Positions 4,269 to 28,393 of a DNA stretch of 29,240 bases are shown here, piece by piece. Source of the stretch: a virus; IMG/VR virus record IMGVR_UViG_3300044697_000027, positions 1-29,240 of that record. One strand, written 5' to 3'. Both the position numbers and the translations under genes were made by a program. The stretch's first letter is position 1. Each line of letters starts with the position of its first letter. The notes beneath the pieces are model-generated. The model worked only from the letters and a program-made list of their open reading frames with translations, was not told the origin of the DNA and ran no database searches.

Positions 4269-4643
4269 ATGAACGCTCGGAACACTTGTTGGGTGGAGAG
4301 AATCGACGGGAAGATCGTAAAAATATTTCGCTCAACTCACGGGCAGGATTGGACTCGGGCGATGGAAGCGGGGACGCTTCAAAGTTGCCCGAAGAAAGAT
4401 GCAATCGGCGCAATTCGCTCGCAAATCTGGAAACGTTGTGGCGGGCAATGCGAGTGGTGCGGAAAACGGATTACTGAAACGGGACCGCTGTGGAAACGGA
4501 TGCACATGCACGAAAAGATTCCTAAAGGTTCAGGCGGCGAAGTCTCACTTGACAATTGCGTCGGAATATGTCAGAATTGTCACGAGAATAGCCCGGAAGC
4601 TCACGGGGATCGAAAACCTCAATGGACAAAGGAGTTGGAATAG
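4269..4643 (+). CDS. HNH endonuclease
   Basis: A 124-residue protein with C61/C64 (CEWC), a beta hairpin ending MHEKIPKGSGG (H81, E82), the LDNC turn with N96, and C101/C104/H105 (CQNCH). This is the zinc-stapled HNH layout of stand-alone phage nucleases. The N-terminal 40 residues (CWVERIDGKIVKIF, strand-rich) are not part of the HNH core. The ATG follows the upstream TAA by three bases. It may be a free-standing homing or packaging-linked nuclease; terminase genes are not in this window, so the role cannot be settled. A copy of the dispersed box (one mismatch beyond the usual variants) overlaps the first CxxC codons. Confidence 0.85.
   Translation: MNARNTCWVERIDGKIVKIFRSTHGQDWTRAMEAGTLQSCPKKDAIGAIRSQIWKRCGGQCEWCGKRITETGPLWKRMHMHEKIPKGSGGEVSLDNCVGICQNCHENSPEAHGDRKPQWTKELE
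4456..4470 (+). repeat. 15-base dispersed box, variant copy 8
   Basis: GGTGCGGAAAACGGA inside the HNH gene where it encodes the residues after the first CxxC; 13 of 15 match. Could be chance. Confidence 0.5.
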
Positions 4644-8094: not shown

Positions 8095-8949
8095 ATGAAT
8101 GAAGAATTCGTTTCTCGAATTGAACTCTTGCAGCGGAAGTTTAAGAAGAGGGCCGTCAGCCTTGTCCGCCCAGAATCCGAATTCCCCGAATTAACGGTTA
8201 CCGTTCCGGACTCCTGGAACCAGGTTCAACTTGCCCCGCTGTATGACGTTCACATTGGCTCGGGCGACCACGACGCCGACTTGTTCCAGAAGCACCTGGA
8301 ATGGATCGCCAAGACCCCGAACGTCTTGACTTGGAACGGCGGAGATATGGTCGAAAACGCGACGAAATACTCGCCTGGAGCATCCGCAATTTGCCAGAAA
8401 GGAACTCCGAACGAGCAGTTATTTCAGGCAGCCAAACAATTGACCGCGATTCAGCACAAGATGCTGTTCGCAATTCCGGGCAATCACGAAGACCGAACGT
8501 TCAACGAAGCGGGCGTAGACGGGGCCCAGCAATTGGCCGAGCATCTCCGTTTACCGTACTTTCCAGATTACTGCTTCGTCACAATCAAGTGGCGCGGAAA
8601 CTCGTTCCGTGGTTGTATCCACCACGGCTCGGGCGCGGCACAGACTCCTGGAGCGCAGAGAAACGCCGCCCGCAAAGACATGCCGTGGGCTAACTTTGAT
8701 TTCTTCTGGACCGGGCATTTGCATCAGTCAATGGCTGACGTGGTTTACCGAACGGATTTCGATCAATCCACGGGCAGGATTTTTGAGCGGAATGCAATCG
8801 TGATGATCAGCCCGTCGTATGTCCGCTATTTCGGAGGATACGCCGCGAAGCGTCGTATGGCCCCCGGAAACCGAGGGCTGTCCGTGGCCGTGCTTAATGA
8901 AGATGGCCGCATTGATGTGAGTTTGCATGCTAGGGGTAAAAGAATTTGA
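8095..8949 (+). CDS. Calcineurin-like metallophosphoesterase
   Basis: A 284-residue protein with the full metallophosphoesterase signature: D51-V-H53 (YDVHIGS), GGD at 82-84, GNHE at 129-132, IHHG at 175-178 and GHLH at 207-210. These residues hold two metal ions and hydrolyse phosphodiester or phosphomonoester bonds. Stand-alone phage members are often annotated simply as metallophosphatase; DNA processing (SbcD-like) is one option given the RecA and endonuclease VII genes just downstream, but no SbcC partner is present. AGGAG precedes ATG 8095. GCCCG/CGGGC pentamers are about half as dense here as in the first 1200 bases. Confidence 0.9.
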   Translation: MNEEFVSRIELLQRKFKKRAVSLVRPESEFPELTVTVPDSWNQVQLAPLYDVHIGSGDHDADLFQKHLEWIAKTPNVLTWNGGDMVENATKYSPGASAICQKGTPNEQLFQAAKQLTAIQHKMLFAIPGNHEDRTFNEAGVDGAQQLAEHLRLPYFPDYCFVTIKWRGNSFRGCIHHGSGAAQTPGAQRNAARKDMPWANFDFFWTGHLHQSMADVVYRTDFDQSTGRIFERNAIVMISPSYVRYFGGYAAKRRMAPGNRGLSVAVLNEDGRIDVSLHARGKRI

Positions 8950-9320
8950 CCCCTGCGGAAAAAACTAGGAAGTGGCGGGATGAGCATCCGGGTTATCAAG
9001 AAGCGTGGCGCTTGAAAAACCCGGAAATGTACAAAGCGGGGATGTTCAGGGGTGGCCTCAAAAGGATGGGACTTACTCCTGAACAATACTTTGCCATATT
9101 CGAAGAGCAAGGTGGGGTTTGTGCGCTATGCAAACAGCCTCCCAAGAGAATCAGGCTGTCGGTAGACCACGACCACGATTGTTGCCCAAGTGAGCGGGCG
9201 TGTGGTAAATGCAGACGCGGGTTGTTGTGCAGCATCTGCAACGTTTACATAGTCGGGCATTTGGAAAAAGCGGGAATACCGCCCGAAAGACTGGTCTCGT
9301 ACCTAAGGAAAAGAGTGTAA
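8946..9320 (+). CDS. Recombination endonuclease VII (Holliday-junction resolvase type)
   Basis: A 124-residue protein with C59/C62 (CALC), the catalytic VDHDHDCC at 73-80, and RRGLLCSICN at 90-99 giving C95/C98, the typical endonuclease VII zinc site and His/Asp/Asn active centre. A second CGKC pair (86-89) is inserted between them. The family cleaves branched DNA such as Holliday junctions, useful for clearing replicative concatemers before packaging. The start is TTG at 8946, which overlaps the phosphoesterase TGA by four bases; TAA shares a base with the RecA ATG. Together with the next gene it forms a recombination pair. Confidence 0.88.
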   Translation: MTPAEKTRKWRDEHPGYQEAWRLKNPEMYKAGMFRGGLKRMGLTPEQYFAIFEEQGGVCALCKQPPKRIRLSVDHDHDCCPSERACGKCRRGLLCSICNVYIVGHLEKAGIPPERLVSYLRKRV

Positions 9321-25194: not shown

Positions 25195-25209
25195 TCCTTT
25201 TTCCGTACT
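25195..25209 (-). repeat. 15-base dispersed box, copy 22, forming a ribosome binding site
   Basis: AGTACGGAAAAAGGA on the - strand starts in the TAG stop of the upstream adaptor-like gene and supplies AAAGGA for the nozzle-like ATG at 25191; same variant as copy 16. Confidence 0.85.
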
Positions 25210-26107
25210 AAATGCCGCGATGTTGTTGGCCCGATTGAAGCGTCATTTGCCGCCCGATAGGATCGAGCGTGATCGCGTTGAAGTTGGCCAAAAAGATGTC
25301 AATTTCTGTGGCGGACAAACCTTCGGCGGCTCCGAGCAATGCGGCGATAAATCTCTGCCGAGTCGGGGCCCAACGGGAATCGTCGGCGAACTCGTACATC
25401 CAAGCCAGAAACCCGAGTTGATAAATATATCCAAGGTAGTCCGGCAGCGGGGCCCAAGTTTGGTTTAAGCTCGTGATTAGCGGTGCGCCCTGCTGCATGG
25501 TGATGGCCACAGGGTACGCCTTGTCTGGCACGGGCATCAGTCGGAACGTAACGCCCAAACTTCCGATCAGTTCCGCCGATATATTTTGCGGGCGGCTCTG
25601 CGCTGCGTCCAAGGCCAGATCGACCTTGTTGGAAATCTGGACCCACTTCAAACTTACAGGGTCTTGAACCGAGGCGTTCTCCAACCAACCGTAAAGATAG
25701 GAAGAAGATGCGTTTGGAATCGCTCCGACGTTCGTCCAAGTTACGGTGTTGTCGGTCGTCGTTCCGTTCAAAGTCCCGTTGAAACTCGGGATCGTACCGC
25801 CCGTAGTACCGCCCGTAGTTACTTTTTGAATGTTAGAAGCAGAGTCGATTACGAAACTGCCCGCAGCCAAGATTTGGTTCGCGGGCCACAAGTACAAAAG
25901 CAAATAATCCTGCTGGCCCGCCGTTGTCAAGAACCCCGTCACAACTCTGTTTTCGGGCCAGCGAAAAGGTCGCCCGAGGATAGTTTGGAGAACAGTGTTG
26001 GCGCTCGTGATCGCAGGCTCTTTGGGGCCGCCAATCGAGAGCTGACGATTGAAGCAGAATCTTTTGCTCCACTCGACACTGGATAAAATTGTTTTCGTTG
26101 ACGCCAT
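25208..26107 (-). CDS. Head-tail adaptor-like protein, first of a pair
   Basis: A 299-residue protein. The pattern ANTVLQTILGRPFRWPENR, then GQQDYLL near residue 66, an inserted beta module (NGTTTDNTVTWTNVG), and a helical C-terminal half with LPDYLGYIYQLGFLAWMYEFADD and RQRFIAALLGAAEGL fits the shape of podovirus adaptor (T7 gp11-like) proteins, which sit under the portal. The 27089 gene repeats the same ANxVLxxxL, W-N-R, QQDY and C-terminal helix pattern, so the two are probably paralogues. AGAGGGTGG precedes the ATG. It directly precedes the nozzle-like gene, as in T7. Confidence 0.6.
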   Translation of the reverse strand: MASTKTILSSVEWSKRFCFNRQLSIGGPKEPAITSANTVLQTILGRPFRWPENRVVTGFLTTAGQQDYLLLYLWPANQILAAGSFVIDSASNIQKVTTGGTTGGTIPSFNGTLNGTTTDNTVTWTNVGAIPNASSSYLYGWLENASVQDPVSLKWVQISNKVDLALDAAQSRPQNISAELIGSLGVTFRLMPVPDKAYPVAITMQQGAPLITSLNQTWAPLPDYLGYIYQLGFLAWMYEFADDSRWAPTRQRFIAALLGAAEGLSATEIDIFLANFNAITLDPIGRQMTLQSGQQHRGI

Positions 26108-26115
26108 CCACCCTC

Positions 26116-26144
26116 TTGACGGATACTTCGGAATTTGGTATGAT
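26116..26144 (+). promoter_or_regulatory. Sigma70-type promoter for the inserted HNH gene
   Basis: TTGACG at 26116-26121, 17-base spacer, TATGAT at 26139-26144. Expected transcription start near 26151, about two bases before the ATG. Confidence 0.75.
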
Positions 26145-26152
26145 TACTGATT

Positions 26153-27079
26153 ATGGATATTCAGGAATTGGAGAAAAAACTGTTATCGTTCGGAGGTAGC
26201 CGTGTTGTCACTCAGAACGGTGCTAACCAGCCCGAAACCGTGGATATTCTGTTCAATCGCGGGCGGGTGATGGAATATGCGCGGCTCGTGAAGAAGCCGG
26301 GGGAACACCACCGTTGCCACATGAATTCTTTGGACTTAGTCGTCCAAAAACCGTGGACTAGGGCGTATTGCACGGGATACGCTTTAACGCTGGAAGATGG
26401 AATATGGCGTCCGCACTCTTGGGTTTACTTAAAGAAAACCAAAACCATTTGGGAAACCACAACAGAAAGAATTCTTTATTATGGCGTTAAAGACTTTGAA
26501 GCTACCCGCATCTTCACGATTGAATGGGAAGCCAATATCAATCAACAACTCCGAGGAGCAAAAGATGCGGAAACGTGGAAGCCAATCGCGGGCTATGAGG
26601 AAATCTACGAAATCTCCGATAAGGGCAGCGTAAAAAGAATCAAACCCGAATATAATACCTACGTCGGGAAAATTCTAGCGGGCGGCTACGACACTGACGG
26701 CTACCATGTAGTTCTCTTGTACAAGAGCGGCAAACGTCGAATGTTCAAGGTTCATCGACTGGTAGCGGAGGCTTTTCTTCCCAATCCCGATAGCAAGCCG
26801 CAAGTCCACCATAAAAATTCCGTAAAGTTTGATAATCGGGCGGAGAATTTAGAATGGGTTACTTGGCCGGAACATGTAGAACATACGGTTGCTGACAACG
26901 CGTACAACCCTGCTAAAGGCTCGGATCACCACAACGCCAAGTTAAAGGAAAGCCAGATTCCAGAAATTCGGAAACTTTTAGCCGAAGGAAAATCCTGTAC
27001 AGATATCGCTCTGCTGTTCGCTGTCAATTCTGCTACAATTGGCGACATCAAAGACGGAAAAACTTGGAAACACGCTTAG
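26153..27079 (+). CDS. HNH homing-endonuclease fusion (unknown N-domain + NUMOD4 + HNH + HTH)
   Basis: A 308-residue protein on the + strand between two - strand paralogues. Residues 1 to about 125 form a separate domain with WRPHSWVYL, ETTTERILYYG and a Cys/His pair (HHRCH), known to me only as a general hypothetical pattern. From 141 the protein follows free-standing homing enzymes: WKPIAGYEEIYEISDKG (NUMOD4, 142-158), VHRLVAEAFLPNP and VHHKNSVKFDNRAENLEWVT (HNH_3 type, 200-237) and a C-terminal helix-turn-helix (270-305) for target binding. No ribosome binding site; leader about two bases. Low GCCCG content suggests recent arrival. Confidence 0.85.
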   Translation: MDIQELEKKLLSFGGSRVVTQNGANQPETVDILFNRGRVMEYARLVKKPGEHHRCHMNSLDLVVQKPWTRAYCTGYALTLEDGIWRPHSWVYLKKTKTIWETTTERILYYGVKDFEATRIFTIEWEANINQQLRGAKDAETWKPIAGYEEIYEISDKGSVKRIKPEYNTYVGKILAGGYDTDGYHVVLLYKSGKRRMFKVHRLVAEAFLPNPDSKPQVHHKNSVKFDNRAENLEWVTWPEHVEHTVADNAYNPAKGSDHHNAKLKESQIPEIRKLLAEGKSCTDIALLFAVNSATIGDIKDGKTWKHA

Positions 27080-27088
27080 TATATAAAA

Positions 27089-28393
27089 CTAGTAATACCA
27101 CGGCCAACCCGGATAGGGTGCCGCTGGCCCGAGCCAGATACTTCCCGCCCCCGTTTCCATGATCGGTTCGGAAGGGTAAAATCCAAAATTATTTTGTTCG
27201 CGATTCGCGAACTTAAACGAATCGTTCAGAGCTTTCAGCCACAGCGTCCATTCCTGCGAAAATCGCGAGCGAATCTTTGCATCCGGATTTCTCCGGTATG
27301 CCTGCGCCATGCAGCCATCGACGAAGGTTTGATAATAGTCGTCGGGCAAGACTCCGAGGCTTTGGGTCAACGTCGTGAACTGCGTGATCCGAAGTTGCCC
27401 GACACAGTTGATCGTCCAGACTTGCCCTTGTTCGGGCGGGATCGGATTCAGACGGATTGCTTGTCCGTTGGGATTGATCGCGGTCCAGACGCAGGTTCCA
27501 TCGATAACGGTCGTAGCTGCTGTATTCGGGCTAGTCAAGCTCGGGTAAGTCTGGTTGATATATCCGACGCCCGTATCGGCGGGGTTCGAGTAATTCGCGT
27601 GTGTAAATGCGGCGGTGAATCCCGTTTGATTCGGGCTAGTTCCGATCACGGACGCCACGGTAACAGATTGCCCGTTCAGAAAAGTCTCGGCGGTATTTTC
27701 GAGCAGCACACTCTGGCCGATTTGTACGGTATTAGGAACCGTTACGGTCAAGACGTTGCCCGTAATCGAAGTCGCTGTGATATTCAGCGCAAACGGATTA
27801 AACGTCCCGCAAGTTCCGTACGTCGTCAACGCCCACAAGCCGCCATTCGGGTCTTCGATTGCCGTTGAAGGATTCGAGGGTTGCGTCAGTACAGTTAACG
27901 GATTTATGTAGACCGCTCCGGGCCCTGGGTTGTTTTGTCCAGTCGGAGTCTGAAGTTCGGTATCGCCCCAAGTTCCGGTCTGCGCCAAGCTGTTCGGAAT
28001 CCAGCAGACCTTGCCCGGATATCCGCACTGTTGGTACGTTACGAGCAAGTCCTTGTGGCATTCAAGAGGAATTTTGGGCTTCGGTTGCGACGTATTCGAG
28101 AACTGAATTCCCCACGCGCTTTCGAGCCACGCGAGTTGCACCAAGCCCGGAATGAAATAATCCTGCTGCCAAGAAATCGTAGGAAACGGGGTAATGTTGA
28201 AACGATTCCATTTCCAATTCATCGGTTGCCCGTTTGCTCCGCCGAGCAACATCGCGGACAAGACCTGATTCGCGAGCTGAATCATCGGCTGCTGCGAAAA
28301 TCCGCCCGTAGCCAACGCAGGCGCGGTATCGCCGTTTGCCGAAACTATATCGGTGACATCTTGGAGCGTATAACTTGACGAGTTCACAGCCAT
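27089..28393 (-). CDS. Adaptor-like tail protein, second of a pair, with module insert
   Basis: A 434-residue protein. LANQVLSAMLLGGANGQPMNWKWNR and WQQDYFIPGL mirror the N-terminus of the 25208 gene; LPDDYYQTFVDGCMAQAYRR and RSRFSQEWTLWLKALNDSF mirror its C-terminal helices. Between them lie about 200 residues of beta modules, including a stretch at 209-281 shared with the nozzle-like protein and a DGTCVWTAINP motif. The C-terminal tail is Pro/Trp/Gly-rich (PAAPYPGWPWYY). Probably a tail tube or adaptor component; ends nine bases from the convergent HNH gene without a terminator-like hairpin. Confidence 0.6.
   Translation of the reverse strand: MAVNSSSYTLQDVTDIVSANGDTAPALATGGFSQQPMIQLANQVLSAMLLGGANGQPMNWKWNRFNITPFPTISWQQDYFIPGLVQLAWLESAWGIQFSNTSQPKPKIPLECHKDLLVTYQQCGYPGKVCWIPNSLAQTGTWGDTELQTPTGQNNPGPGAVYINPLTVLTQPSNPSTAIEDPNGGLWALTTYGTCGTFNPFALNITATSITGNVLTVTVPNTVQIGQSVLLENTAETFLNGQSVTVASVIGTSPNQTGFTAAFTHANYSNPADTGVGYINQTYPSLTSPNTAATTVIDGTCVWTAINPNGQAIRLNPIPPEQGQVWTINCVGQLRITQFTTLTQSLGVLPDDYYQTFVDGCMAQAYRRNPDAKIRSRFSQEWTLWLKALNDSFKFANREQNNFGFYPSEPIMETGAGSIWLGPAAPYPGWPWYY

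Follow-up and report, generated by a model that had tools for sequence, protein, structure and literature searches.

A probable homing cassette in an environmental phage: an HNH endonuclease gene merged with a small enzyme-like gene between two late genes

An HNH homing-endonuclease gene, of the free-standing kind, and an enzyme-like cargo gene probably form a homing cassette within one insertion in an environmental phage, and their two frames are merged there into a single open reading frame (ORF). The stretch of DNA that was analysed, called the window below, comprises 29,240 nucleotides, positions 1–29,240 of virus record IMGVR_UViG_3300044697_000027. In its closest relative, IMGVR_UViG_3300050821_001994 (L010; also L033, L041 and L059), both genes are present and separate, and in two further relatives (L032 and L034) the site is empty. 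This before-and-after series, from an empty site through two overlapping genes to one fused gene, points to a route by which a homing endonuclease may come to carry a second domain. In addition, the analysis revealed a family of phage domains whose conserved pattern is enzyme-like; it occurs in viral contigs, plasmids and a bacterial MAG and is unmatched by the models of Pfam, PHROGs and NCBIfam.

Layout of the fused reading frame

According to the ORF list, its translation and Pfam, the fused ORF (26153–27079, plus strand) encodes 308 aa and consists of an N-terminal domain (N-domain), NUMOD4, HNH_3 and a weak HTH, the nuclease makeup that an earlier note had proposed from the letters alone. 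NUMOD4 (residues 140–189; 26570–26719, plus strand) was matched with E 1.4e-12 and 48.1 bits against a Pfam cut-off of 23.4, and HNH_3 (residues 199–241; 26747–26875, plus strand), which was also followed in an alignment of relatives, with E 1e-9 and 38.3 bits against a cut-off of 24.8. The resolvase-type HTH (residues 263–291; 26939–27025, plus strand) stayed below its Pfam cut-off (E 0.048, 14.2 bits versus 23.8).

The same note had taken the first 125 residues for a complete domain outside the usual homing-enzyme layouts. The domain itself was borne out, for it is also found as a stand-alone phage gene, but its length had to be revised to about 133 aa, as its last helix (residues 114–132) reaches the joint; it thus covers residues 1–133 (26153–26551, plus strand). 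Searched alone, as the note had advised, these residues matched neither Pfam nor PHROGs (E up to 1), nor NCBIfam, nor any PDB sequence with phmmer (E up to 10), and a 21-row profile of the domain returned three chance-level matches among PDB sequences (best E 0.87). The possibility that the N-part is a usual extension of this HNH group was ruled out, because, among 223 HNH relatives, 75 of the best 80 have fewer than 30 aa before the domain match; the remaining five of these 80 have longer open frames without the N-domain. Among the same 80, an N-domain lies nearby only in the L010 contig itself.

Members and contexts of the N-domain family

The first relative of the N-domain to be found, with 39% identity over 109 columns, was a 163-aa protein from a megaplasmid of Alteromonas mediterranea (two records); its gene is followed by an Xre/RES gene pair. 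With the window sequence as query, no N-domain relative was found in genome contigs, and viral contigs searched with the window sequence, the Alteromonas sequence and a two-row alignment of both gave none. A DNA pattern for the motif DGxWRxHSW was present in 26 viral contigs, with family members in 18 and not in the other 8, and an alignment-based scan of viral contigs returned the identical 18. No relatives were found in named phages. Two loci in one Verrucomicrobia MAG both became alignment rows; 2 of 288 verrucomicrobial genomes matched the N-domain, one being this MAG and the other giving a weak match with internal stops. A partial match on a Euzebya plasmid was excluded, and the final alignment holds 22 sequences, the window included.

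The N-domain occupies a separate frame in 15 of the 18 viral contigs, measuring 132–223 aa between stops (the locus end truncates L016, whose frame was read from L057). The survey of other contexts that the note had called for thus found mostly a small phage gene of its own, that is, an independent domain. In the other three it lies within larger frames. In the 463-kb phage contig L009 it lies inside a polyvalent-type protein of 3348 aa (L009:2865–12908) together with ART-PolyVal (three stretches), 2'-5' RNA ligase and NUDIX; in L027 it follows a Phage_Mu_F domain in one protein; and in L020 it lies within a 513-aa frame without a Pfam match. An effector or cargo role of the N-domain is suggested by the two multidomain contexts, those in L009 and L027.

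No constant genomic partner emerged among the neighbour frames scanned with Pfam (57 of 117, being those remaining from 93 after four loci were dropped): the 25 Pfam families shown (of 28) each occur in at most one of the 57, and NUMOD4, HNH_3 and NUMOD3 in one frame each. For L052 and L057 the automatic frame choice fell on the wrong strand for the N-domain gene, and the neighbours of L052 are approximate. Among the 18 viral relatives, a related HNH gene adjoins the N-domain gene only in L010. The pair is therefore known from two phages only, the window and L010, and a lasting partnership of N-domain and HNH is not established. In L008/L049, a related HNH gene lies about 1.3 kb from the N-domain gene on the other strand.

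Fourteen columns are invariant in the 22 rows (C55, H56, N58, G75, D82, G83, W85, R86, H88, W90, T102, T103, Y109 and G111), and A77, L78 and E101 are conserved in at least 90% of them. Judged by conservation, this pattern is enzyme-like. Between the window and L010, the nucleotide differences in the N-domain number 27, 21 and 72 at codon positions 1, 2 and 3, and this excess at third positions argues that the domain is under constraint.

Predicted fold of the N-domain

An AlphaFold2 model of the N-domain built from 21 rows is compact, with a mean pLDDT of 94.1 and a pTM of 0.87. It includes a helix (55–65), strands at 70–79, 84–93, 98–101 and 106–113 and the last helix. C55 opens the first of these helices, H88 lies in the second strand that follows and E101 ends the third. 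In a model of the whole fusion protein, the C-part was good and the N-part poor (mean pLDDT 71), with only two rows over the N-part.

Structural comparison aligned 994 chains, of which 34 reached a Z of at least 2 and none a Z of 5. The best neighbour was PeiW with Z 3.8, a value within the noise of the aligner. Among the 25 neighbours listed, 12 are papain/transglutaminase-like (6 by title, the others being TglA, SpvD twice and GdmF three times) and 7 are cyclic-nucleotide-binding domains. No single papain-like family stands out, and that further families are missing from the list carries no weight. Foldseek gave no N-domain match in the PDB below E 0.001 (best 0.091); against viral models three matches fell below 0.001, the top one being an uncharacterised Yasminevirus protein (E 4.4e-8, 32% identity).

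In the papain-like core, the cysteine sits at the very N-terminus of a helix, and strands 2 and 3 bring the histidine and a polar residue (PMC10318531). The predicted model has this layout, with Cys opening the core helix, His in strand 2 and the polar residue in strand 3, and in this it resembles the superfamily; the N-domain has neither a sequence match nor a strong structural match to any named family. Taken together, the fold is most likely papain/transglutaminase-like with a Cys-His-Glu set, a class that stays a prediction because the structural scores are weak.

An insertion between two late genes

The fused ORF lies between late gene A (299 aa; 25208–26107, minus strand) and late gene B (434 aa; 27089–28393, minus strand), neither of which matches Pfam or PHROG, and is oriented against both. 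From the start of gene A to the stop of gene B, the insertion spans 981 bp (26108–27088); it measures 963 bp in L010, and in L032 and L034 3 bp separate genes B and A. L010 has the same neighbouring genes, and at the same site its N-domain gene and HNH gene are separate but overlap by ATGA, so that the TGA stop of the former lies in the ATGA whose ATG starts the latter. Identity between the window and L010 is 71% for the N-domain, a match that as a sequence comparison is more than chance, 60% for the HNH part and 66–80% for the flanking genes. Genes B and A of L032 and L034 are 87–90% and 76–78% identical, respectively, to those of the window, and the site could be read directly; the HNH gene is missing from these otherwise matching alleles, and neither record (93 and 91 kb, perhaps incomplete) has a match to the N-domain or the HNH part. 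Hence the two parts are present together and absent together.

In the more distant L035 and L040, which share the gene order and may be incomplete records, there was also no match to either part. At the B/A boundary, L035 has a gap of 43 bp and L040 a different 284-aa gene (L040:3074–3928), histidine-phosphatase-like by eye, indicating that this boundary accepts insertions. Genes A and C are separated by 259 bp in L032 (5401–5659) and 238 bp in L034 (5401–5638), compared with 16 bp in the window and 18 bp in L033. The L032 stretch contains the greater part of a 76-aa frame that runs on the other strand. A 69-aa frame lies directly before gene B in the window.

A promoter scan placed a promoter-like site, TTGACG-17-TATGAT (26116–26144, plus strand), 8 nt before the N-domain ATG, and L010 has a counterpart, TTGACA-17-TAATAT, before its N-domain ATG. 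Such sites number 4 in the window and 3 in L010 against shuffle means of 1.6 and 1.8, a count that alone is not strong; the evidence for a promoter is the shared position before the ATG. On the minus strand, a ribosome-site-like stretch recognised by eye, GAGGGTGG (26108–26115), precedes the ATG of gene A inside the insertion; by eye it is present in both carriers and was not seen in the empty alleles. The separate genes of L010 at the same site, together with the empty alleles of L032 and L034, argue for an insertion of two genes with its own promoter-like site.

The joint and the origin of the fusion

The joint of the two former genes (26552–26569, plus strand) has a net gain of 10 nt relative to L010, which has its ATGA overlap there, and differs from it by more than one gap in the nucleotide alignment. 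By eye and from this alignment, a relict ribosome site, AGGAG (26554–26558), and an ATG (26565–26567) can be recognised within it (26554–26567, plus strand). This AGGAG-6 nt-ATG stands at the place of the L010 HNH start codon and is out of frame in the window. The fused form was found in the window only, among the viral contigs and the 80 best-matching HNH relatives (of 223), scans from which records very close to that of the window may be missing. A recent origin of the fusion is probable, because the ribosome site and ATG of the former HNH gene survive out of frame and a near-invariant Asn of the HNH part has been substituted.

In the nuclease part, H220 and N232 are kept as in 69/69 relatives, N228 as in 67/69 and H201 as in 66/69. 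The window has H at position 241, where 67/69 relatives have N, and H at position 219, where 48/69 have N and one has H. Both positions are presumably metal ligands in I-HmuI-like enzymes, and the change at 241 means that the HNH part of the window may be inactive. Nevertheless, His fills the role of metal ligand in HNH enzymes of the colicin type, so that the substitution need not kill it. Between the window and L010, dN (NG86) amounts to 0.32 in the HNH part, compared with 0.19 in the N-domain; dS was not usable, presumably owing to saturation.

These observations lend appreciable, though lesser, weight to a reading in which the fusion is a step of decay, the nuclease having lost its own start and gained active-site changes while selection keeps the N-domain only; it is compatible with the cassette and denies only that the fused nuclease works. 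The relict start signals out of frame at the former HNH start, the two His substitutions and the higher dN of the HNH part fit decay. An HNH frame that has stayed open for about 170 codons, with its four conserved residues in place, and the service of His as a ligand elsewhere speak against it.

An error of sequencing or assembly, the actual phage having two overlapping genes like L010, is a rather unlikely explanation of the fusion. The fused form was seen once, a pattern spanning the joint matched only L010 among the viral contigs (records very near the window may be outside that scan), and the retained ribosome site and ATG are just what an unfused gene needs. On the other hand, in comparison with L032 and L034 the window has genes A, B and C at full length (299/299, 434/434 and 1258/1256 aa), which argues that indel errors are infrequent in this contig, and more than one gap would have to be explained at the joint.

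The suggestion that the domain was captured to change targeting fared worst: recruitment to serve the nuclease as a new module for DNA targeting or regulation, which the in-frame spacing of 7 residues between the last helix and NUMOD4 would suit, is highly improbable, since the N-domain stands alone in most relatives and is a separate gene overlapping the HNH gene in L010, its conserved pattern is enzyme-like, and the usual NUMOD4 is intact and accompanied by the weak HTH as in ordinary relatives, while no result bears on targeting. Being a separate gene inside one insertion in L010, the N-domain is better seen as a neighbour or cargo gene.

A proposed course of events

Under the favoured reading of a homing cassette, a small enzyme-like gene and a gene for an HNH homing endonuclease would have been inserted together between the two late genes. 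The ATGA overlap in L010 suggests that the nuclease is made there through re-initiation of translation. Small indels at the overlap would then have put both frames of the window in register to yield one protein; the fusion may thereby drop the re-initiation step and supply N-domain and nuclease in equal amounts. As a cargo enzyme, the N-domain might modify or cut a host or rival protein and so pay for the upkeep of the nuclease, which would cut near the B/A junction and copy the cassette into empty alleles. The cassette and its flanks have diverged to a similar extent, which is equally compatible with recent homing and with vertical inheritance followed by loss in the lineage of L032 and L034. 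More tentatively, the unit may be a minimal cassette, in which a predicted cysteine-enzyme effector is translationally tied, and here fused, to a homing nuclease. If this holds, one protein would both spread the cassette and act on the host.

Comparison with known phage systems

In phage T4, the start of mobE overlaps the stop of the upstream nrdA (UAAUGA), which was suggested to couple their translation (PMC2988022). Like mobE and other free-standing mob/seg endonucleases, the HNH gene lies between conserved phage genes, and the ATGA of L010 is a comparable overlap; unlike nrdA, a resident gene, the upstream partner here is part of the insertion and is fused in the window (PMC2988022). The ShiLan insertion element is similar in that an HNH sequence shares an open stretch with another phage gene, but there it lies out of frame inside a methylase gene, whereas the HNH part of the window is in frame and C-terminal (PMC11855218).

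The family members in L009 and L027 are of the kinds described as phage polyvalent proteins (PMC5512222) and MuF proteins (PMC5576092), respectively, from which the window protein differs as a small two-part fusion with two predicted activities. Polyvalent proteins are multidomain proteins that combine disparate activities and enter the host along with the phage DNA. The words papain, transglutaminase and cysteine are absent from the main text of the former account (PMC5512222).

Homing endonuclease genes (HEGs) are believed to carry other phage genes along as cargo in HEG-islands, which exceed 10 kb and have essential cargo flanked by HEGs (PMC10448857). The combination of HEG and cargo is thus already known from that account; the present case differs as a unit of 1 kb in which a single HEG is paired with an accessory, enzyme-like gene, the two being fused in the window. 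HEG-islands are recognised by genes flanked by HEGs and by high nucleotide identity between distant phages, whereas the site in the window has one HEG and a cassette divergence like that of the flanking genes. In L010, a further HNH-like gene (L010:3–512; by eye, with a DHDH motif and Cys pairs) overlaps gene B at its start, which places gene B between two HNH-type genes in a HEG-island-like layout. Two more HNH-type genes occur elsewhere in the window (8946–9320 and 4269–4643), one matching recombination endonuclease VII and the other HNH.
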